From Sulfurimonadaceae bacterium (GTDB lineage: Bacteria > Campylobacterota > Campylobacteria > Campylobacterales > Sulfurimonadaceae): DNA of 64,000 bases. The stretch spans positions 1-64,000 of the forward strand of contig JAQUHB010000008.1 of NCBI GenBank assembly GCA_028683835.1, read 5' to 3'. Of the stretch, positions 44,807 to 55,178 are shown piece after piece (within the stretch, counting starts at the first letter, position 1; every line of letters begins with the position of its first letter). The notes beneath the pieces were generated by a model. That model was not told the DNA's origin. It did not search any database and worked only from the letters and a program-made list of their open reading frames with translations. The position numbers and the translations under genes are program-made.

Positions 44807-45265
44807 TCATGTAAAAAACTCTACAAACACTTTATCTAAATATTTTTTTGTATTTTCTACTTTTTCTATCTTTGCATCAAAAATAGGTTTAGATGAAGGG
44901 AAACGCTCTGAATATTCACGATAAAGATCACATTTCATATCCATATTTTTCACAAATTGATCCATAACAAGTTTCATGTCATCTGGTGTTGCGATCCAGC
45001 GCATAAAGTTTTGAAACATTCTTTCTCTAACATCAAGAGCAAAGTGTTCATCAAGCTCTGCTGCCATCGCTTTTAAATCCCATCTTGAGAAATAAATACC
45101 GCTTTTGTTTGGAGGCATAACCTCTTTATACATAGCAACAAGGTAGTCAGGATAATCTTCACGAGCATCACTTTCACATTCACCCGTATCACAATTTCCT
45201 TGCATTACATTACTTTGAAGAGCCTCTAATTCGCTTCTTAGTTCATTTAAATCGTTAACGTCCAT
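44807..45265 (-). CDS. Hypothetical protein, last gene of the molybdoenzyme operon
   Basis: The 152-residue acidic, helix-rich protein has no signal peptide. A short Cys pair (GNCDTGEC) lies near residues 23-30 and another Cys near residue 111. I do not recognise a family. The all-helical composition with Met- and Trp-containing segments (YFSRWDLKAMAAEL, RMFQNFMRWIATPDDM) is reminiscent of TorD-like chaperones, but no motif confirms this. It overlaps the upstream gene by 11 bases, so it belongs to the operon. A maturation or assembly role is inferred from position only. Confidence 0.65.
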   Translation of the reverse strand: MDVNDLNELRSELEALQSNVMQGNCDTGECESDAREDYPDYLVAMYKEVMPPNKSGIYFSRWDLKAMAAELDEHFALDVRERMFQNFMRWIATPDDMKLVMDQFVKNMDMKCDLYREYSERFPSSKPIFDAKIEKVENTKKYLDKVFVEFFT

Positions 45266-46019
45266 TTTGTAAATCCTCTATTAAATGTAGTGTATAAAAA
45301 TCAAGTAGCTTATCGAAGCCGACATATTCGTTTAAGTGCTTCATACTTGAAAAGGTTTTTGAATCTTTTAAATCCAGATTCATCTTTGCTCCTCTTGTGA
45401 TGACTGAAGAGATATCATCAAAAGTCGTATCTATAAGTAGATCAAAGTCGCTAAAATCAACCCCATTTGGACTAAGAAAGTTTATATCTATGTTTATATC
45501 TAAAGCTTGACCCATAGATAAAAGAGTTTCTATCTGTTGATCATAATAAGCAACCTCATATCCATCCAATAAAAGAATAGCTAAAGCCTTCGCAAGTGGT
45601 TTATCTCCGATAATTGCGATCTTTTTGATACTTTTATCTGAGTCTATAAACTCTTTTACAACATTACCAGAGATAAACTCTCCGTAAAGTGTTTGTCCTA
45701 CTCTTTTTACAAAGTCACAACCACCACATCTTTTGACCACTTCTGAAGAACTATCCAAAAGGTCTAAAATATTTTCTTGATACTCAAGTCCCAGCATTGC
45801 GCCGTTAACATGAGATTTTTTCATATTTGCTAAAGTAAAATAAAAGTCATCTTCTCGTATGTTCATCGGTATCATCATACCGTCCATACTCGCTTCTTTA
45901 AGCGCTTTATTGAAGTTATGACTCAATCTGTTTGTCGATGCAGAGATGGCAATATAGCCATAAAGTATAGTTTGCGGTCCTATTCTGTCATCGAGGTTCA
46001 TAGAGTTCTCTTCGTTCAT
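45255..46019 (-). CDS. Degenerate shikimate-dehydrogenase-like protein
   Basis: The ~254-residue cytoplasmic protein looks like the two-domain AroE fold. Residues ~18-110 (LYGYIAISASTNRLSHNFNK, then HVNGAMLGLEYQENILDLL) follow the substrate-binding domain pattern. Residues ~125-225 look like a Rossmann domain (KIAIIGDKPLAKALAILLL, LLIDTTFD). The usual catalytic Lys motif (NVTIPHK) is absent, being replaced by GAMLGLE. It therefore probably does not reduce dehydroshikimate. A CGGC near residue 97 is unusual. I chose ATG 46019; ATG 46022 is adjacent. It overlaps the ferredoxin gene and belongs to the molybdoenzyme operon. Its role is unknown. Confidence 0.6.
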   Translation of the reverse strand: MNEENSMNLDDRIGPQTILYGYIAISASTNRLSHNFNKALKEASMDGMMIPMNIREDDFYFTLANMKKSHVNGAMLGLEYQENILDLLDSSSEVVKRCGGCDFVKRVGQTLYGEFISGNVVKEFIDSDKSIKKIAIIGDKPLAKALAILLLDGYEVAYYDQQIETLLSMGQALDINIDINFLSPNGVDFSDFDLLIDTTFDDISSVITRGAKMNLDLKDSKTFSSMKHLNEYVGFDKLLDFYTLHLIEDLQNGR

Positions 46020-47125
46020 CATAACCCCCATAACTCTCTTGCCTCTTTCTCTTCGACTAAACATCTTGGGCAAAGCTTTTCGCCCTCTTTATACGCAAAA
46101 TAAACGCCACATTCATCACAGCGTTTGATATCAAATTTGATCAGCTCTTCACTTTTTGGTTCAAAAAAGTTTTTAAGATTAAAACTTGGTTTTACTGTCA
46201 GTGATTTTGGTTCACATACATCATGACAGCTTGCACATCTCACACAGGCAAGAGAATTAAAAGCAATAAAAGAACTTTTTATATCAGAACTAAGAGCTCC
46301 GGTTGGACAGATACGGTAACACATCTGACAATCCGTACATGTAGAAGCATCAATGTTTTTTTGCGATATGAAAGAGATATCTTTTATGCTGATGGTATGA
46401 AAGATTTCTGGAACTTCAGTGCGCTTCATCGCCATCAAAAGTAAACTTCTACGCTGTGGTACTTTTTTTTGTTTTATTTTTGCAATATCACTAAGCATTA
46501 TCTCATGAGACTTCAACTCATCATCACCAGCTTCAACTTGGTTTAGAAACTGCTGTTGAATCTGAGAAACACGTTTGAGTGAGTCTTTTGAGAGCAGTTC
46601 TCTTCGTGAGATTACCTCTTTTTCTTCCTTTACAGGAAGTTCTTCTAAAGGGACAAGAGCCTCTACATTCAAGCGTTTTGTTTGCGTCATTGCTTCTAGT
46701 AAAAAGTTTGTTTCCTCTGCTCTATTTTTTATAAGTTCAAGATTTGTTTTAGCGATCGCACAAAAAGCGCATGGACCTATATCAAGAGTTATATCCTCTT
46801 TAGAAAAAAGAGAAAGACTTAAAAGTTCCTCTACACTTAAAGCAGCAATACAAGGAAGTTCACTCTTACATGTAAGCACTTTTTGATCTGTTTCCATAAA
46901 TTTGAAGATAAAATTAATAGGATTAAAATCATCCAAACTGTAAGCCGCAGTCGGACAAGCTGCGCCACATCCGCCACATCCAACACATTCGCTTGGAGTA
47001 AAAGAGACTACAGAGTTATTGATCTTTATCGTCTCTACCGGACAAACCTCTACACAAGTGTTACATGTAGCATTTTTATTACTCGAGTGAACACATTTTG
47101 ATACATCTAAAGTAAGTAAACTCAT
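46019..47125 (-). CDS. Multi-cluster ferredoxin-like protein with C-terminal zinc ribbon
   Basis: The 368-residue cytoplasmic protein carries four cysteine clusters typical of [4Fe-4S] sites. The N-terminal pair is C11, C21, C24, C28 and C47, C50, C53, C57. A second pair starts at CTDCQMCYRICP and CVRCASCHDVCEP near residues 275-315. A CAFCA pair lies near residue 118, and the C-terminus has CDECG...CPRC, a zinc-ribbon-like site. A coiled region (residues ~130-240) separates the pairs. It lies between the TorD-type chaperone (4-base overlap) and the AroE-like gene, and could carry electrons to or assist the molybdoenzyme. A perfect CTTACATGTAAG lies inside. Confidence 0.82.
   Translation of the reverse strand: MSLLTLDVSKCVHSSNKNATCNTCVEVCPVETIKINNSVVSFTPSECVGCGGCGAACPTAAYSLDDFNPINFIFKFMETDQKVLTCKSELPCIAALSVEELLSLSLFSKEDITLDIGPCAFCAIAKTNLELIKNRAEETNFLLEAMTQTKRLNVEALVPLEELPVKEEKEVISRRELLSKDSLKRVSQIQQQFLNQVEAGDDELKSHEIMLSDIAKIKQKKVPQRRSLLLMAMKRTEVPEIFHTISIKDISFISQKNIDASTCTDCQMCYRICPTGALSSDIKSSFIAFNSLACVRCASCHDVCEPKSLTVKPSFNLKNFFEPKSEELIKFDIKRCDECGVYFAYKEGEKLCPRCLVEEKEARELWGL
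46865..46876. repeat. Perfect CTTACATGTAAG palindrome, copy 6
   Basis: Inside the multi-cluster ferredoxin gene, read as Leu-Thr-Cys-Lys. Confidence 0.8.
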
Positions 47126-47772
47126 ATGTTATAGTTATACCCATTCTCTTTTAAATGAGTCAAATATTCAAAATCACTCATCATAAATTCGAGTGCAAGT
47201 TCTGCTGCGTCAAAATAAAATGCACTTCCCGCTTCTGATTTGACATTGAGTAAATACATTGGTGCCCACTCTAAAAGATGCTCTTTTAAGAAGTTATACT
47301 CGATCTCTGCAATCTCGGCTGCGATTAGAGGCTGTCCATCTTCAAGAGCTTTATACTCAGCTTCACAAAGTTTATACATAAATTCAAGTTCAACACCGAT
47401 ATGATCTGCACTCATAACACGTGCGACATCAAGCTCAACTCTAAAATCAAAGTCATTATAAAGTGCTTGTACAGGATTATCTCCGCCTGTTTCCATCATC
47501 TGATCATCTCTTCTATAAAAAGACTCGTAAGGGATAAGGTGCATTAAAAAAAGGTTAGTAAAATCAACATTTAGGTATTTTTCTATAAGATCTTTATTAC
47601 CCATTTGTTTACGTTTTTCCCATTTTTCAAATGATGGAAAAAAAGAGAGCATATTTTCATCTTCGATTATTGATTTTAATAGCGTTTCATCAACTTCTGT
47701 CATTAAGATTCTAGAGATAAGAGCATAAATATTTACACGTGATAATTGTTCTATTTGAAGAGCTTCTTGCAT
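47122..47772 (-). CDS. TorD-family molybdoenzyme chaperone
   Basis: The 216-residue, largely helical protein has the chaperone pattern of TorD/DmsD/NarJ types: an N-terminal helix pair (NIYALISRILM), LFLMHLIPYESFYRRDD near residues 73-90, where the conserved YES-type region lies, and EYNFLKEHLLEWAPMYL near residue 160. Such proteins bind the twin-arginine signal peptide and help cofactor loading of the molybdopterin subunit. It lies directly downstream of that subunit (72 bases), which has a twin-arginine signal. Confidence 0.82.
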   Translation of the reverse strand: MQEALQIEQLSRVNIYALISRILMTEVDETLLKSIIEDENMLSFFPSFEKWEKRKQMGNKDLIEKYLNVDFTNLFLMHLIPYESFYRRDDQMMETGGDNPVQALYNDFDFRVELDVARVMSADHIGVELEFMYKLCEAEYKALEDGQPLIAAEIAEIEYNFLKEHLLEWAPMYLLNVKSEAGSAFYFDAAELALEFMMSDFEYLTHLKENGYNYNI

Positions 47773-47844
47773 ATAAAAGTACCTTTAGGAAAATGTTTGT
47801 GAAGTATATTAAAGCGCCACTTGATGTGGGCTTTAATATGATTG

Positions 47845-50800
47845 TTATATCTCTTTAATCGTAACTTCGTAAGCTTTGTCTGAAACTTTAGATCCAGGAC
47901 GAGGCATATGATGTGGACGACGCATTGTATCGCCAGCTTTAAGTGGGCGAGTCAACTGGTCTCTCCACCCTTGGTATACTTTGAAGTTATTTTCATAGTT
48001 AACTACGATATCACCAATTTTGTCATCAGCCTTAGCAAGTTCTAAACTTACTTTTTGGTGCCATCCGTGGTTACCCGCGATTGGATCTGGATGTGCCGCA
48101 GCAACAGCATTTTGCCATGAACCACTTAGACCATCCCACCAGATATTTTCAAGATCTTTGTTATATTCTTTAAACTGCCATACATCATGACGTGGTTTAA
48201 TTCCCTCAACTGGTTTGAGCGTTCCCACTTTACCATCATTTGTCATGTCATATCTAGGAGCACCAACACCCATGATTCCTAATCTATGTTCAAAACCTGG
48301 GATCTCTACAGAGTCTTTTAGTTTCCAACGACCAGCATGGTGTGAACAAGCTAGAACACCTGGACGAGTTGCTTCAGTCGGTACAGCCATAGCGATAAAA
48401 TAGCCACTTTCTAAATTAGTTACTGTATCCGTAATTTTCACACGTACTGCATCACCGCGCTTTATACCAAGTTTCTCTGCATCTTTTGTATAGATCCAGA
48501 TCGGGTTATGGTTTTGTGAAATCTCCATCAAGTGTTTAGAGTTCACAGAACGTGTGTGAATGTTATACGGTAAACGATAGATCGTATTTAAAGCAAACTC
48601 ATTATCACCCTTCATATAGCTGTGGTGAACTTGTGTTACAAGATGCTTCATTTTTTCATACTCACCATCATTACGTGGATAAACAGGTACTGCATACTCC
48701 GGCCATTTCCAATCAGCAAGCCACTCAACAAAGAAATCAAGTTTTTTACTTGGTGTATGAAACCCTTGATGAACTTTTCCGTTAATTTCAACACCGATTG
48801 AGTGCTTATGACCAGCTTCTTCCATCCATAAAGTGCCAAATTTATCTTTTGTAACTTCACTTTTTGGAATCTTTTTACCTTCATAAGTATAACTCGTGCC
48901 ATCAAATGCCAGCGGAGCTTCTTGAGGCTTATAAACATCAGTTTTTTCAGTCCAAGCACCATGATCACGTAAATATTCATATACAGGAAATTCAGCCGCT
49001 GGATACAACGTTTTAGCGGTCTCGGATAATCTTGGTAAAAGACTGATCGCTGCATCGAAATACTCAGGCACAGTAACACATCGAGACGGATCTTTTTTAG
49101 ATGCCCAATATTTTTGAATACCTAAGCTTCCATCTTTATCAACATGGTGATAAATAATATTTGCCCAGAATTCTGTTTCTTCCCAGATCTCGCCCAAACC
49201 ATATTTCATGTGGGCTTCAAGCGTCGCACGAGTTGGATCTTTTGCTTTCCAGCCCATTTTTTCAGCTGCTACACGTAAAACCGCTTGACGGAACTCTAAA
49301 CGAGCTTCTGGTTTAGACGGTGTAGACTGTTGGTCATGACGTTCACCTGCAAGTCCTACAGGAAGGATATAGTCACAATACCAGTTTGTCTCACTCCATG
49401 TAGGAGCAAGGTTGAATGACAGCTCAACTTTCGCTTCATTTTTCAACACCTCTATCCATCTAAATCCATCTGGATTAATCCAAACTGGATTATACATACG
49501 CGGGAAATATACAGAAAGCTTCGTAGGTACGTTTACACCTTTAGCCTGCCATTTTTTCTGCCACTCTGTATCAGAGAGCAAGTGTGGTAACAAGTAACTC
49601 ATCTCATATGTACAAAGAGGGAATTCAGGCGGCCACATAAGTTCATTCCAAGCATCTACCTTAGGTGGTTTTTCACCTGCAACTGTCGCCTTGTCTCCCT
49701 CACCAGCGAGAGAAATCTCATGCCAATGGTGTAGTCCTGTGCCACCAATATCTCCTTGCATCGCACCACGAACTACAAGTGATAAGAAACCAGCACGAGT
49801 ATTCATCCATCCACCGCGGTGACCGATTGTTCCTGCACGCCAGAGATATGAAGCTATTTTATTTCCAGCACCAATATACATATCCCAAAGTTGGTCAAGT
49901 TTATAACCCATACCTTCCATTTTACACTCTTTGAGAACGAACTCTTTCGTGTATGGAGCATATAACTCTTTTGCTAATTCAATAAAATCTGCATAGCTCT
50001 CACCCGTTGGAACTTTAGAGATATAGCCATAACCAACCATCTTTTGCAAGTGCTCTTTGTTTGCCATCAAACGATCCCAGTTCACCCATTCGCGAACAAA
50101 ATCATGCGCAACTAAATCATCTCCATTTTTATCTTTTTCATGTAAGACACGGTTTACAAGGTAGAGATAAAGCGCTGCCTCTGTCCCTGGCCATACTGGT
50201 AACCAAAGATCAGCCATACCAGCAGAGTTACTCATACGTGGATCAATAACAACCATTTTTGCGCCGCGTTTACGAGCATCAGCTATGTAACCTGCTGATT
50301 GTTGGAAGTAGTGTCCCGCATCTGCCGCGTGAGATGATTGTAAGAAAATCAGATTTGCATTTGCCCAATCCGGAGAGTTTCTATCATCATTTGTCCATTG
50401 GATTGTTCCCTGACGAGCACCTGCTGAACAGATGTTCGTGTGTGAATTATATCCATCAATTCCAAGTGTATATGGAACACGCGGACCAAAACCGTTTTCA
50501 TTTGGACGACCAACATGATATATAATCGATTTTTTAGACAGTTCATCACCAACTTTGATAGTATCATGCATTTTCTTACCAATCTCAGCCATAGCGATAT
50601 CCCAGGTAACACGAACCCATTTACCCTCACCACGTTTTGAACCTGGAGCACGTTTTAGTGGAAATGGAATACGATCTGGATCGTACATTTGAGAAGTTAC
50701 AGCATAACCTTTTGCACAGTTACGTCCACGAGAACCTGTATGTAATGGATTACCCATATACTTACGAACTGTCATCGTATCTTTATTAACCCATGCAGTA

Positions 50801-51120
50801 AGACCACAACCTGCTTCACAGTTTGAACAAACTGTTGGAACTAGCATAAAGTTGTTGACTTTGATACCATCTGGATTTTCTTTACTTTGTACACCGTGAC
50901 GTTCTATACCGCCGCGTTTCCAATCAGTACCGTCTAGTTCAGCAAAATTATCCCACTCTTTCAAAGGAGGATAAAAAGACAAAGAATTCGGAGTATTAGT
51001 AAATTTTGATTCTGCAACAGATTCTGCAACAGCATCTGTACTAAATACACCCTTCGCTAATGTAACGCCTGCAACAGTAAATGCAGCGCCTTTTAAAAAT
51101 GTTCTTCTTTCTAAATACAT
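47845..51120 (-). CDS. TAT-exported molybdopterin oxidoreductase catalytic subunit
   Basis: The 1091-residue catalytic subunit has a twin-arginine signal (RRTFLKGAAFTVAG, from residue 5), so it works in the periplasm. The [4Fe-4S] motif CSNCEAGCG...RNCAKGY lies near residues 96-140. The molybdopterin domains follow, with TNICSAGARQG near residue 230 where the Mo ligand is expected (Cys candidate). The size fits tetrathionate (TtrA) or selenate (SrdA) reductase-type enzymes better than the ~760-residue PsrA/PhsA. The B-C-A order is shared with ttrBCA and srdBCA. The substrate (tetrathionate, polysulfide, selenate, arsenate or similar) cannot be decided from sequence. Confidence 0.87.
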   Translation of the reverse strand: MYLERRTFLKGAAFTVAGVTLAKGVFSTDAVAESVAESKFTNTPNSLSFYPPLKEWDNFAELDGTDWKRGGIERHGVQSKENPDGIKVNNFMLVPTVCSNCEAGCGLTAWVNKDTMTVRKYMGNPLHTGSRGRNCAKGYAVTSQMYDPDRIPFPLKRAPGSKRGEGKWVRVTWDIAMAEIGKKMHDTIKVGDELSKKSIIYHVGRPNENGFGPRVPYTLGIDGYNSHTNICSAGARQGTIQWTNDDRNSPDWANANLIFLQSSHAADAGHYFQQSAGYIADARKRGAKMVVIDPRMSNSAGMADLWLPVWPGTEAALYLYLVNRVLHEKDKNGDDLVAHDFVREWVNWDRLMANKEHLQKMVGYGYISKVPTGESYADFIELAKELYAPYTKEFVLKECKMEGMGYKLDQLWDMYIGAGNKIASYLWRAGTIGHRGGWMNTRAGFLSLVVRGAMQGDIGGTGLHHWHEISLAGEGDKATVAGEKPPKVDAWNELMWPPEFPLCTYEMSYLLPHLLSDTEWQKKWQAKGVNVPTKLSVYFPRMYNPVWINPDGFRWIEVLKNEAKVELSFNLAPTWSETNWYCDYILPVGLAGERHDQQSTPSKPEARLEFRQAVLRVAAEKMGWKAKDPTRATLEAHMKYGLGEIWEETEFWANIIYHHVDKDGSLGIQKYWASKKDPSRCVTVPEYFDAAISLLPRLSETAKTLYPAAEFPVYEYLRDHGAWTEKTDVYKPQEAPLAFDGTSYTYEGKKIPKSEVTKDKFGTLWMEEAGHKHSIGVEINGKVHQGFHTPSKKLDFFVEWLADWKWPEYAVPVYPRNDGEYEKMKHLVTQVHHSYMKGDNEFALNTIYRLPYNIHTRSVNSKHLMEISQNHNPIWIYTKDAEKLGIKRGDAVRVKITDTVTNLESGYFIAMAVPTEATRPGVLACSHHAGRWKLKDSVEIPGFEHRLGIMGVGAPRYDMTNDGKVGTLKPVEGIKPRHDVWQFKEYNKDLENIWWDGLSGSWQNAVAAAHPDPIAGNHGWHQKVSLELAKADDKIGDIVVNYENNFKVYQGWRDQLTRPLKAGDTMRRPHHMPRPGSKVSDKAYEVTIKEI

Positions 51121-51131
51121 CTATAACCTCT

Positions 51132-52028
51132 TTAGCTTAAGTTCAATAATTGTGGAATGATCAACCAGACATGTTTAACAATCCATAGACCTGCGATTGC
51201 CAATATTGCCGCTAGTTTCAATAAACTTTCACTTTTACTTGAAATACTAAGTAAAACTAAAACCATCGGTACTATGAAAGCCATTAGTTGACCTAACCAG
51301 AACATCGTTGTATATTGCCCCGCACCTTTCACTGCTTGTAGAGTTACCATAACTTCCTCAGCCTTCATCGGTCCAAACACCATTTCACTCATGTAAATGA
51401 TAAATGCCATTGCAGCACTTAAACCAAGAATAATTCCTAAATCTCTTTTTGCTGCATATGGAAGTTTTTTGCCCATCAAAATAAGAGTTGCAGAACCAGT
51501 CAATGTAGCAGCAAGTATCATCTGCACAGCTTCAGTTGGCATTTGCCATAGTTCACGAGCTGTTGCTTCAGCCATAATAGCAGCCGTATAAAGTGTTACA
51601 GGGATAGAGATAATTACAGCCAACGGTAACAACTTATCAAAAGATGCTGTATCTTTTTTCAAAAAGACCATATATGCCATCAAGAAAAGTAATCCAACTA
51701 AACCAGTTACAATCCATGCACCAACTGCAATCGCCGACGTAAGATGTGGATGTGTAAAGATATGCCAGAATCTAAACATCTGATGTAAATCTATGACCGT
51801 AAAGAGTAGAAAAATGTGAATAAACACAATTGAAACTACAATTACAGGAAAACGTAAATATCCTGCTTCATTTGGATACTTTTTAAGCAGATAAAAAAGC
51901 ATAAAGATAACACCCGTACCAATGCTTTTTGCCCACATATTCATAGTAATAATCCAACCCCAAACGATACTTGGTAAAGCGACGTCTAAAGTTACTACTG
52001 CGTGTGTTGCTTCAACTACTGTATGCAT
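51132..52028 (-). CDS. NrfD/PsrC-type membrane anchor subunit
   Basis: The 298-residue protein has about eight transmembrane helices and the NrfD/PsrC-type motif FRFWHIFTHPHLTSAIAVGAW near residues 85-105. This family binds quinone and passes electrons between the quinone pool and the FeS subunit without haem. It overlaps the FeS gene by one base and precedes the catalytic subunit by 11 bases, as expected for a complex iron-sulfur molybdoenzyme. Confidence 0.9.
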   Translation of the reverse strand: MHTVVEATHAVVTLDVALPSIVWGWIITMNMWAKSIGTGVIFMLFYLLKKYPNEAGYLRFPVIVVSIVFIHIFLLFTVIDLHQMFRFWHIFTHPHLTSAIAVGAWIVTGLVGLLFLMAYMVFLKKDTASFDKLLPLAVIISIPVTLYTAAIMAEATARELWQMPTEAVQMILAATLTGSATLILMGKKLPYAAKRDLGIILGLSAAMAFIIYMSEMVFGPMKAEEVMVTLQAVKGAGQYTTMFWLGQLMAFIVPMVLVLLSISSKSESLLKLAAILAIAGLWIVKHVWLIIPQLLNLS

Positions 52029-52663
52029 TAGTGGTGTCCTCCTACTGGTAAGTGAGTCAATTTATTAAATAGTGAATAACCTTCAATACGCTCAGATGCT
52101 AATGGATTTAGATTTACATCACCGCCACCTACATAGTAATGATGAGGGTCTGTACCTTTTTCAGGTTTTCTCACTCTTGTATCTCTATGATCTTGAATAT
52201 ATTTGCTTATATTTGATGTTGGATCATCCAAATCACCAAAAATATTTGCTTCAACTGGACAGGCAACCACACAAGCTGGCATCATGCTAGACGCAATACG
52301 GTGCGCACAATATGTACATTTATCTGCTGTTTGTGTTTCAGGATCTATATAAATAGCACCATATGGACAAGCCATAATACAACCAGCACATCCGATACAA
52401 CGTTCTTTATCTATATTAACAATCCCATTGTCAATATAGTGCAAAGCACTTACTGGACAGATACGCTCACAAGGTGCATTCGCACAATGGTTACAACGTA
52501 ATGGAGTAAATGTACGCTTTGTTTCAGGGTACATTCCAACATCTATATACTTAACGCGAAGTCTCCATGTACTGAGTGGAACTTCATTTTCCACCTTACA
52601 TGCCACCTCACAACCTTTACATCCCATACAAAGATGTAAATCAACTAGAAAGCCCAATTGCAT
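52028..52663 (-). CDS. Four-cluster FeS electron-transfer subunit
   Basis: The 211-residue protein is a DmsB/NrfC/PsrB-type subunit with four [4Fe-4S] motifs: CMGCKGCEVACK near residue 12, CNHCANAPCERICP near residue 57, CIGCAGCIMACP near residue 89 and CTYCAHR...CVVACP near residue 117. There is no signal peptide; it is probably exported with the twin-arginine catalytic subunit. It is first in the operon, so its upstream gap (52664-52930) must hold the operon promoter. Confidence 0.93.
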   Translation of the reverse strand: MQLGFLVDLHLCMGCKGCEVACKVENEVPLSTWRLRVKYIDVGMYPETKRTFTPLRCNHCANAPCERICPVSALHYIDNGIVNIDKERCIGCAGCIMACPYGAIYIDPETQTADKCTYCAHRIASSMMPACVVACPVEANIFGDLDDPTSNISKYIQDHRDTRVRKPEKGTDPHHYYVGGGDVNLNPLASERIEGYSLFNKLTHLPVGGHH

Positions 52664-52930: not shown

Positions 52931-54220
52931 CTAATTAAGTCGAACGCGTACCGACTGTTCATGTGCAGTCAAACCTTCAGTATTGGCTATCATCGCACAA
53001 GCTTCTCCGATCTCATTGATAGCTTTAGAACTAAATGAGATGATAGAGCTTTTTTTCATAAAATTTTCTACTCCAAGCGGAGAGTAAAACTTTGCCGTTC
53101 CACCCGTTGGAAGTGTGTGATTTGGTCCTGCTACATAATCGCCTATCGCTTCAGGAGTATTGTGTCCCAAAAAGATAGCTCCTGCATGCTTTATATACGG
53201 TAGTAGTTCAAAAGGATTATTTGTCGCCACTTCAAGGTGTTCTGGCGCTATCTTATTCATAAGAATTATTGCTTCGTCCATCGTTTTGGATACTATGATT
53301 GCTCCACGCTCTTCTATAGATTTTCTCGCTATCTCTTCTCGAGGCAGTTTTATGAGCCAGTTTTCTATCTCTTTTTTTACCTCTTGTGCCAGTTTTTCAG
53401 ATGTAGTTATAAGGATAGAACTTGCCATCTCATCATGTTCAGCCTGAGAAAGCATATCTATAGCCATATGTGAAGGATTAGCACTTTCATCAGCTAAGAT
53501 TCCTATCTCACTTGGTCCTGCGATCATATCTATGTTCACGTCACCAAAAACCATCTTTTTTGCAGTTGCCACAAAGATATTTCCCGGTCCTGTAATAACA
53601 TCCACTTTTGGAATCGTCTCAGTGCCATACGCCATAGCAGCTATCGCGCTCGCACCTCCGACCTTATAGACTTCACTCACTCCACAAAGATGACAAGCTG
53701 CAAGAAGAAGTTCATTTGGCTCATTGTCAGGTGTCGGAGTACAAATAACTATCTTCTCGACTCCCGCAACTTGAGCAGGAATAACATTCATCAAAAGTGA
53801 AGATGGATAAGCGGCTTTTCCACCAGGAATATATAACCCTGCAGAATCAACAGGCGTCACTTTTTGGCCCAAAATCGTTCCATTTTCTTCTGTATCAAAC
53901 CAGCTTTTTGGTTTTTGTTTTTGGTGATAGACTTTGATGCGATCATACGCAAGATGTAAAGCGGCTTTAAGATCTTTATCCAGTACATCATAAGCGTTTT
54001 TCATCAGTGTCACATCTATTTTTAAATCAGCATCATTTTTAGGAGTCCACTTATCAAACTTAGCGATGTGTGATTTTAACGCACTGTTTTTATCTTTTTT
54101 GATCTCATCAATAATACTACCAACGATAGTGCTTACATGCACCATATCCATCTTACCGCGACCTAATAGTTCTTCAAATTGTGCCTCAAAATTTTGCGAG
54201 GAAGTAGTTGTAAAAATCAT
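52931..54220 (-). CDS. hisD: Histidinol dehydrogenase
   Basis: HisD oxidises L-histidinol to histidine in two NAD-dependent steps. The 429 residues match the family. Visible motifs are the VDSAGLYIPGG stretch near residue 130, VDVITGPGNIFVATAKK, MLSQAEHDEMASS with catalytic or zinc-site residues, and GPNHTLPTGG near residue 375. It is followed by no other his gene here. It overlaps the upstream thioredoxin-like gene by four bases (ATGA). Confidence 0.97.
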   Translation of the reverse strand: MIFTTTSSQNFEAQFEELLGRGKMDMVHVSTIVGSIIDEIKKDKNSALKSHIAKFDKWTPKNDADLKIDVTLMKNAYDVLDKDLKAALHLAYDRIKVYHQKQKPKSWFDTEENGTILGQKVTPVDSAGLYIPGGKAAYPSSLLMNVIPAQVAGVEKIVICTPTPDNEPNELLLAACHLCGVSEVYKVGGASAIAAMAYGTETIPKVDVITGPGNIFVATAKKMVFGDVNIDMIAGPSEIGILADESANPSHMAIDMLSQAEHDEMASSILITTSEKLAQEVKKEIENWLIKLPREEIARKSIEERGAIIVSKTMDEAIILMNKIAPEHLEVATNNPFELLPYIKHAGAIFLGHNTPEAIGDYVAGPNHTLPTGGTAKFYSPLGVENFMKKSSIISFSSKAINEIGEACAMIANTEGLTAHEQSVRVRLN

Positions 54221-54666
54221 AATCTGCTCTTCATATAGTTAATTTGTTGTTCTTGTTTTTGTATAGCAAAACTTTTTGATACCGTATCCAAAATCTTTAA
54301 AAGATTTTTTTCGTCCACAGCACCCATGATAGGCTCACTCATAGCTTTTCCCTCATCATCCAAAAACCAGATAGTTGGAGTAGCAGGACGCCAAAACTCT
54401 TCTGGAAAAGCGTCATCATCATCATCTGTATATGCGATGTATGTTACATAGTCTTTATTTAATGTTTCTATAACAGCATCTTTTGAAAGCGTTTCTTTTT
54501 CAAGCATAACACAGTATTTACATGTATGACGCGAAACGATAAACATGATTGGTTTTTGTACTATATCTGCTTGAATCAGCGCATTTTTAAAGCTTTTTTG
54601 TAAAGCAAGTTCAGATCCAAAAAGATTCATAAATACTATTAACGCGAGTAAAACAATTTTTTTCAT
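54217..54666 (-). CDS. Periplasmic thioredoxin-like protein
   Basis: The 149-residue precursor has a signal peptide (MKKIVLLALIVFMNLFGS) and a thioredoxin fold with RHTCKYCVMLEKETL near residues 46-60 (CKYC active site) and a cis-Pro region PATPTIWFLD. It resembles DUF255/SoxW-type periplasmic thioredoxins. It is coupled by overlap to aroK upstream and hisD downstream. No specific partner is evident. Confidence 0.82.
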   Translation of the reverse strand: MKKIVLLALIVFMNLFGSELALQKSFKNALIQADIVQKPIMFIVSRHTCKYCVMLEKETLSKDAVIETLNKDYVTYIAYTDDDDDAFPEEFWRPATPTIWFLDDEGKAMSEPIMGAVDEKNLLKILDTVSKSFAIQKQEQQINYMKSRL

Positions 54667-55178
54667 AACTTAGCCTTTTTTTGGATCTCTTTTACGATAT
54701 CTTCGACACTTTTATCCGTAACATCTATAACGATATCTGCAACTTTTTTATATTGTGCTTCTCTCTCAGTATAAAGAGCTTTTGCACGTTCAAGATCTTG
54801 CATCAATGGACGTTTTTTAAGCTTACTGGCTGCATTTGGATGATTCATGATTCTCCCATGAATTTTTTCAAAAGGGGAATCTAACAAAATAACCGTTCCA
54901 ATTTTATTAAGGTTTTTGACTTTATAAAATCCGCCACCAGTTGAGATGAGCGTATCTTTTACACTTTTTTCAAGCCACTTTGCAACTTTAAATTCTATAT
55001 CTCTAAAATACACTTCACCCTCAGCTGCAAAGATCTTTTTGATACTTCTATTTTCCATACTTTCTATGATGTCATCTGTATCGAGTGCAACAATTCCAAG
55101 TTGCTTAACCATTTCACGAGCCACACTACCCTTTCCAACACCCATAAAACCTATCAATACAATATTTTTCATTCTCAT
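54663..55178 (-). CDS. aroK: Shikimate kinase
   Basis: AroK phosphorylates shikimate in aromatic amino acid synthesis. The 171-residue length is normal. The P-loop is GFMGVGKGSV, in which the usual Ser/Thr after the Lys is Gly. DTDD near residue 34, the GGGF substrate loop and RPLMQDLERAK lid region are present. Apart from the P-loop change it looks complete. A second in-frame ATG at 55172 is an alternative start. It overlaps the thioredoxin-like gene by four bases. Confidence 0.9.
   Translation of the reverse strand: MRMKNIVLIGFMGVGKGSVAREMVKQLGIVALDTDDIIESMENRSIKKIFAAEGEVYFRDIEFKVAKWLEKSVKDTLISTGGGFYKVKNLNKIGTVILLDSPFEKIHGRIMNHPNAASKLKKRPLMQDLERAKALYTEREAQYKKVADIVIDVTDKSVEDIVKEIQKKAKL

Follow-up and report, generated by a model that had tools for sequence, protein, structure and literature searches.

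Sulfurimonas and Sulfurovum are abundant chemoautotrophs at vents and redox clines, and the described systems with which the locus reported here is compared include the molybdoenzymes PsrABC/PhsABC, TtrBCA and SoeABC, the last of which is cytoplasmic and has no TAT leader. Every sequenced Sulfurimonas has a homologue of PSR (PMC4584964), and the expression of psrABC has been taken by some authors as sulfur reduction (PMC9122950). The window analysed here (a stretch of 64,000 nucleotides from a Sulfurimonadaceae bacterium) carries a real, conserved operon, which joins an enzyme from a mis-assigned clade within a known superfamily to a module of accessory genes. All seven open reading frames that an earlier note had grouped into a molybdoenzyme operon at 44807-52663 are present on the minus strand, either overlapping their neighbours or at most 72 bp apart:

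52028..52663, minus strand: B subunit, an FeS protein of 211 aa with 16 Cys arranged as four [4Fe-4S] motifs and without a TAT motif
51132..52028, minus strand: C subunit, an NrfD/PsrC membrane anchor of 298 aa (PF03916, 2.8e-13) with 8 hydrophobic segments by hydropathy
47845..51120, minus strand: A subunit, the Mo-bisPGD catalytic subunit of 1091 aa, with a Pfam match and the TAT motif ERRTFLKG
47122..47772, minus strand: TorD/NarJ-family chaperone of 216 aa (PF02613, 9.5e-16)
46019..47125, minus strand: cytoplasmic polyferredoxin of 368 aa with 24 Cys
45255..46031, minus strand: AroE-like putative pseudoenzyme, 258 aa counted from ATG (TIGR00507, 1.5e-7)
44807..45265, minus strand: acidic all-helical protein of 152 aa, pI 4.58, of no known family or fold

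The order of FeS, anchor and catalytic genes given in that note, with a catalytic subunit of about 1091 residues, is the one found, and its count of three extra downstream genes is right if TorD is included in the standard set. With a Mo-bisPGD domain and an N-terminal [4Fe-4S] site (Cys98/101/105/135) in A, a four-cluster B subunit and a membrane anchor, the encoded enzyme has the features of a complex iron-sulfur molybdoenzyme of the DMSO reductase superfamily. The Mo-ligand position of A is Cys231, within SHTNICSAGAR; among 15 diverse homologues the Cys at this position is invariant, and the TAT motif is conserved as well. The best NCBIfam match of B was the TtrB model, at 200.5 bits below the cut-off of 416. 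The TorD gene product scored 58.5 bits with PF02613, above the gathering score of 22.2, and belongs to the TorD/NarJ family, and the cysteines of the polyferredoxin make up four 4Fe-4S motifs, a Cys4 site in the middle and, at the C-terminus, a CxxC...CxxC ribbon. Promoter-like and terminator-like sites in the operon were no more numerous than in shuffled sequence. Shikimate-kinase-like, thioredoxin-like and hisD genes (52931-55178) lie immediately upstream of the operon, and the same trio precedes it in the majority of those Sulfurimonas-type loci whose flanks are long enough.

The affinity of the catalytic subunit was examined in a tree of 44 sequences (LG+G4), which contains several long branches and whose reference groups are TtrA, PhsA, ArrA-like and type II enzymes rather than SoeA, SrdA or SreA. 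The window A family forms a single clade (support 100/100), and its sister group consists of leaderless proteins from Rhodococcus, Thermomicrobium and haloarchaea (joint support 100/100), with the A subunit of Azoarcus KH32C branching outside both. TtrA, PhsA, ArrA-like and type II enzymes are each a separate clade with full support; the phylogeny that the earlier note had proposed thus puts A within none of the tested TtrA, PhsA/PsrA and ArrA-like clades. None of the NCBIfam equivalogs reached its cut-off with A: the PhsA model gave 119 bits (cut-off 694) and the TtrA model 56.9 bits (cut-off 1750), placing A outside PsrA/PhsA and outside TtrA. From the tetrathionate-type layout claimed earlier, therefore, the B-C-A order of TtrBCA was recovered, but not the affinity to TtrA. 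The subunit is likewise distinct from ArrA, with its separate clade and with HVGRPNENGF where ArrA-like proteins show RGRYT, the references being ArrA-like sequences that score below the ArrA cut-off; it also differs from the leaderless SoeABC by its conserved TAT motif. In the alignment, the signatures HVGRP(N/G)E(N/D)GF, SHTN(I/V)CS and SHH.G(R/Q)W are largely common to the leaderless relatives and unlike their counterparts in PhsA, TtrA and ArrA-like proteins. An AlphaFold model of A (mean pLDDT 43, from 15 sequences) was set aside. Judged from these sequence comparisons, the window enzyme is a distinct clade of complex iron-sulfur molybdoenzymes that does not belong by descent to the polysulfide, tetrathionate or arsenate reductases.

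Gene order was compared across 78 named loci from public genomes, apparently all Campylobacterota, and 20 more from whole genomes; genomes G362, G300 and G084 are taken here to be those of S. denitrificans DSM 1251, Sulfurovum NBC37-1 and Nitratiruptor SB155-2, respectively. The A subunits of the S. denitrificans type (L083, L148-L156 and L189) are longer, at about 1127-1146 aa, and their match to the window protein is split by an insertion near its residue 942. On a record labelled as a Sulfurovum mangrovi plasmid (L105, 9956-13296), the A gene runs unannotated across three reading frames, so it is frameshifted or contains sequencing errors; the same record also has dapE, gatC and similar genes.

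Sulfurimonas, Sulfurovum and a number of further families keep the order B-C-A-TorD-ferredoxin-AroE-acidic. Conservation of the seven-gene order, a check that the earlier note had suggested, is far beyond chance, since the downstream part is complete and in order at 51 loci among those with at least 4 kb downstream. In genomes of the S. denitrificans type B-C-A stands alone, and TorD-ferredoxin-AroE-acidic forms an intact cluster far off (near 0.50 Mb and near 1.57 Mb, respectively, in G362). At some loci A is followed by TorD and the acidic gene only; in G085, the one genome of this kind tested, the ferredoxin and AroE-like genes are adjacent to each other at another site. The enzyme and a strong match to the acidic protein occur together in 66 genomes, and the acidic protein occurs without the enzyme in a single one, near a contig end. 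The enzyme-only genomes come mostly from a larger sample of 397, and the acidic gene is in fact present in G003 and G011, two of these genomes; in G042 the enzyme without an acidic match lies near a contig end, and G040 has B-C-A with no strong acidic-protein match. The four genes are thus a module that relocates as a unit; the scattering in relatives that would have spoken against the earlier proposal was looked for, and the genes move together instead.

The TAT leader and TorD co-occur, and the leaderless relatives are devoid of the module. In five of these relatives (L106, L107, L108, L109 and L147) B and C are one polypeptide, and several have an adjacent Mrp/NBP35 ATPase, which possibly stands in for the TorD module. 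A literature search for a module of TorD, AroE and ferredoxin returned nothing; an accessory module with an AroE-derived pseudoenzyme has no description in the literature searched.

The AroE-like family aligned with true AroE by hhalign over 182 columns (97.5% probability, E 5e-12), and the window protein scored 30.9 bits with TIGR00507, far from the cut-off of 200.2 for shikimate dehydrogenase. The catalytic residues of the E. coli enzyme are Lys65 and Asp102. Their equivalents in the window protein are Q and S, and both were lost in all ten aligned members, being replaced by Q/R/A/W and S/L/I/V/T/F/Q. A genuine aroE lies elsewhere in the source genome, and in many lineages the AroE-like proteins have about 120-165 residues and no Rossmann domain. 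Because of these three features a pseudoenzyme is the best reading of the protein. AlphaFold predicted the acidic protein to be all-helical (mean pLDDT 83.8), and neither its sequence nor its fold (Foldseek) gave a significant match in the PDB. Weak matches to Pfam RhoGEF and other eukaryotic families were rejected as chance likeness among helical proteins.

Weaker homologues of the acidic protein adjoin another operon (L168-L176, L181 and L182, with Nitratiruptor as L172). It runs in the order rhodanese, type II DMSO-reductase-family catalytic subunit, FeS subunit, heme subunit, TorD and polyferredoxin, accompanied by divergent genes for an LRV protein, an acidic paralogue and ApbC. The catalytic subunit matched TIGR03479 at 772.7 bits, below the cut-off, the FeS subunit was above its cut-off, and the heme subunit is ethylbenzene-dehydrogenase-like with a cytochrome c domain. 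The ferredoxin belongs to the family of the window polyferredoxin, with 24 of 24 Cys kept. In Nitratiruptor a sox/DsrE block adjoins this type II operon. The two enzymes are of different subfamilies and both are TAT-exported, and the module proteins are leaderless; for this reason cytoplasmic assembly of the enzyme appears the likelier role of the module, fitting it better than substrate-specific electron transfer. The earlier suggestion of a distinct maturation or electron-transfer system is accordingly borne out as to a conserved, dedicated module, and its first half is the likelier one, since a version accompanies a second type of molybdoenzyme.

The A enzyme was found in one copy each in 85 of 397 Campylobacterota genomes, and almost every sulfur-oxidising bacterium of the Sulfurimonas/Sulfurovum type sampled has one copy. 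Its families differ from the Campylobacterota families that hold PhsA, ArrA-like or TtrA-like enzymes, which were counted with strict thresholds in smaller samples, so that the exclusivity covers close members only. S. autotrophica OK10 (G170) has the full operon and additionally two separate PhsA-like enzymes. Its reported PsrA clusters with that of Nitratiruptor SB155-2, apart from non-vent species (PMC4584964), and in pairwise comparison its window-type enzyme gives 69.0% with that of SB155-2 and 60.3% with that of S. denitrificans. A 691-aa formate-dehydrogenase-like protein, considered as the literature PsrA of S. denitrificans, shows the wrong pattern (57.6% to SB155-2 vs 80.4% to S. denitrificans) and was dropped. 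Since the similarity pattern of the window enzyme fits the published grouping and that of the alternative does not, this comparison of sequences makes it very probable that the Sulfurimonas literature means the window enzyme when it speaks of PsrA. The enzyme could be matched to none of psrA1-psrA4 of Sulfurovum indicum (PMC10045233), whose reported Cys positions and absent TAT motif disagree. The earlier framing of the substrate as unknown had overlooked this probable literature name as well as the sulfur context.

Sulfurovum NBC37-1 has the operon immediately after soxXYZAB and genes for a soxH-like hydrolase, a thioredoxin-like and a DsrE-like protein, on the same strand. Six other Sulfurovaceae-type loci (seven counting NBC37-1; 37 loci compared) share part or all of this sox/DsrE block. 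It was found in none of the Sulfurimonas-type loci, in which the operon is beside hisD instead; the sox adjacency is limited to Sulfurovaceae, where it was probably inherited once. Farther away, the leaderless relative of Rhodococcus is preceded by dsrE and tusA, and those of two haloarchaea stand beside rhodanese and a TauE-family sulfite exporter, with no sulfur gene near that of Natrinema halophilum. The gene context thus indicates sulfur chemistry, with oxidation into quinone as its probable form. As to physiology, S0 is a donor in all species for which it is reported, S. autotrophica reportedly uses O2 and fails to grow with H2 or nitrate, and the authors themselves cautioned that growth tests were limited (PMC4584964). 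Together, physiology and context favour a reaction in which sulfane or zero-valent sulfur is oxidised and quinone takes up the electrons.

The proposed model draws on the gene content, motifs, clade, distribution, co-occurrence and module behaviour observed. Genes B, C and A would form a TAT-exported, periplasm-facing, Cys-ligated bis-PGD Mo enzyme, in which electrons pass from A through the four [4Fe-4S] clusters to the NrfD-type anchor and the quinone pool. An inorganic sulfur compound, acting mainly as electron donor, is the likeliest substrate; the candidates are sulfane sulfur, zero-valent sulfur and other intermediates linked to Sox. TorD, polyferredoxin, AroE-like pseudoenzyme and acidic protein would make up a cytoplasmic maturation module that prepares A before export by FeS and molybdenum cofactor insertion and quality control. 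As a whole, a TAT-exported sulfur-oxidising molybdoenzyme feeding quinone together with a four-gene cytoplasmic maturation module is a reading we hold with moderate confidence. Points that speak against it are the confinement of the sox adjacency to Sulfurovaceae, the Natrinema halophilum relative with its lack of sulfur neighbours, the published interpretation of psrABC expression as sulfur reduction (PMC9122950), and G040. A wider claim is offered tentatively, as one that may well prove too broad: the module (TorD, a 24-Cys polyferredoxin, a dead AroE derivative and a helical protein without known fold) could be an undescribed assembly machine for TAT-exported Mo enzymes, and its principal client a conserved quinone-reducing sulfur oxidase that has gone unrecognised in bacteria of the Sulfurimonas, Sulfurovum and Nitratiruptor types, where it is misnamed polysulfide reductase.

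An important question is whether the enzyme is instead a genuine polysulfide reductase, respiratory or S0-activating, in which hydrogenase-derived quinol reduces periplasmic polysulfide. This agrees with the psrABC name and the reading as S0 reduction in the literature (PMC4584964, PMC9122950), as well as with the Cys ligand and the B and NrfD subunits common to PsrABC. We nevertheless regard it as unlikely: A falls outside the PhsA/PsrA clade and well short of its model score, the enzyme is absent from families with PhsA/PsrA-type proteins above the cut-off, and S. autotrophica has its PhsA-like enzymes besides. H2-driven polysulfide respiration in particular is disfavoured because S. autotrophica, with its full operon, is reported to use neither H2 nor nitrate. 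The same physiological record weighs against sulfite dehydrogenation as the only role, because sulfite reportedly does not support growth of the operon-bearing S. denitrificans and S. autotrophica, with S. denitrificans lacking sorAB (PMC4584964). A periplasmic quinone-linked sulfite dehydrogenase, like SoeABC but on the other side of the membrane, is hence quite improbable, even though TauE and rhodanese beside the haloarchaeal relatives, the existence of leaderless cytoplasmic relatives and the sox neighbourhood in Sulfurovum would suit it.

Membership in the Ttr/Srd/Arr group, as a reductase of tetrathionate, selenate or arsenate, would explain the B-C-A order as in ttrBCA and the B subunit nearest the TtrB model, but it is highly improbable, with TtrA and ArrA-like proteins in separate, fully supported clades (in a tree without SrdA) and in other Campylobacterota families. 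As for the accessory genes, the four 4Fe-4S motifs of the ferredoxin and the Rossmann-like region kept by the long AroE-like form could point to a cytoplasmic electron-transfer or regulatory branch formed by the ferredoxin, AroE-like and acidic proteins. Such a branch is improbable compared with maturation: mature A is exported by TAT out of reach of cytoplasmic carriers, relatives of these proteins are found with an enzyme of another type, and many lineages have lost the Rossmann domain.

Transcripts of psrABC have so far been read as environmental sulfur reduction, and these readings would change if the gene codes for a separate, probably oxidative enzyme. If the sulfur-oxidase model is true, the quinone-level entry point of sulfur electrons becomes testable. 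The accessory module, for its part, would be a new assembly route for exported molybdoenzymes via a repurposed biosynthetic enzyme fold.

Compared with known systems, the window operon resembles PsrABC/PhsABC in its Cys-ligated Mo-bisPGD A subunit with TAT leader, four-cluster FeS subunit and NrfD anchor, but its A has 1091 aa against about 760 in theirs, and it has the B-C-A order, a separate clade, another taxonomic range and four accessory genes. With TtrBCA it shares the B-C-A order and a similar length of A (TtrA of an E. coli plasmid has 1021 aa), whereas the clades are separate and the ttr locus examined has ttrR and a sensor kinase without ferredoxin, AroE or acidic genes. A TtrBCA-like operon was also seen beside ars genes on a Citrobacter arsenatis plasmid (L144), with its FeS subunit annotated as DsrO and its TtrA-like subunit at 663 of 1750 bits, well below the TtrA cut-off. 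The B-C-A-TorD genes of Azoarcus sp. KH32C pAZKH (L110, 6245-14558) are followed by three small genes and a homologous 368-aa polyferredoxin; its A, however, has 879 aa and is 26% identical, and the operon lies beside ars genes. Its neighbours are arsA/arsB, a PhnD-type binding protein, a histidine kinase and a sigma-54 regulator. The enzymes of Rhodococcus jostii pRHL3, Thermomicrobium and haloarchaea are full-length relatives (35-39% identity) with the same active-site motifs, but they are leaderless, with B and C fused and without the TorD module. The Campylobacterota type II operon has homologues of TorD, ferredoxin and the acidic protein; it differs by a type II A, an ethylbenzene-dehydrogenase-like heme/cytochrome c subunit in an operon without NrfD, and the presence of ApbC and LRV protein without an AroE-like one. 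Finally, the AroE-like protein is homologous to AroE over the substrate-binding and Rossmann domains, but in its family the catalytic Lys and Asp are gone, as is the Rossmann domain itself in many lineages.
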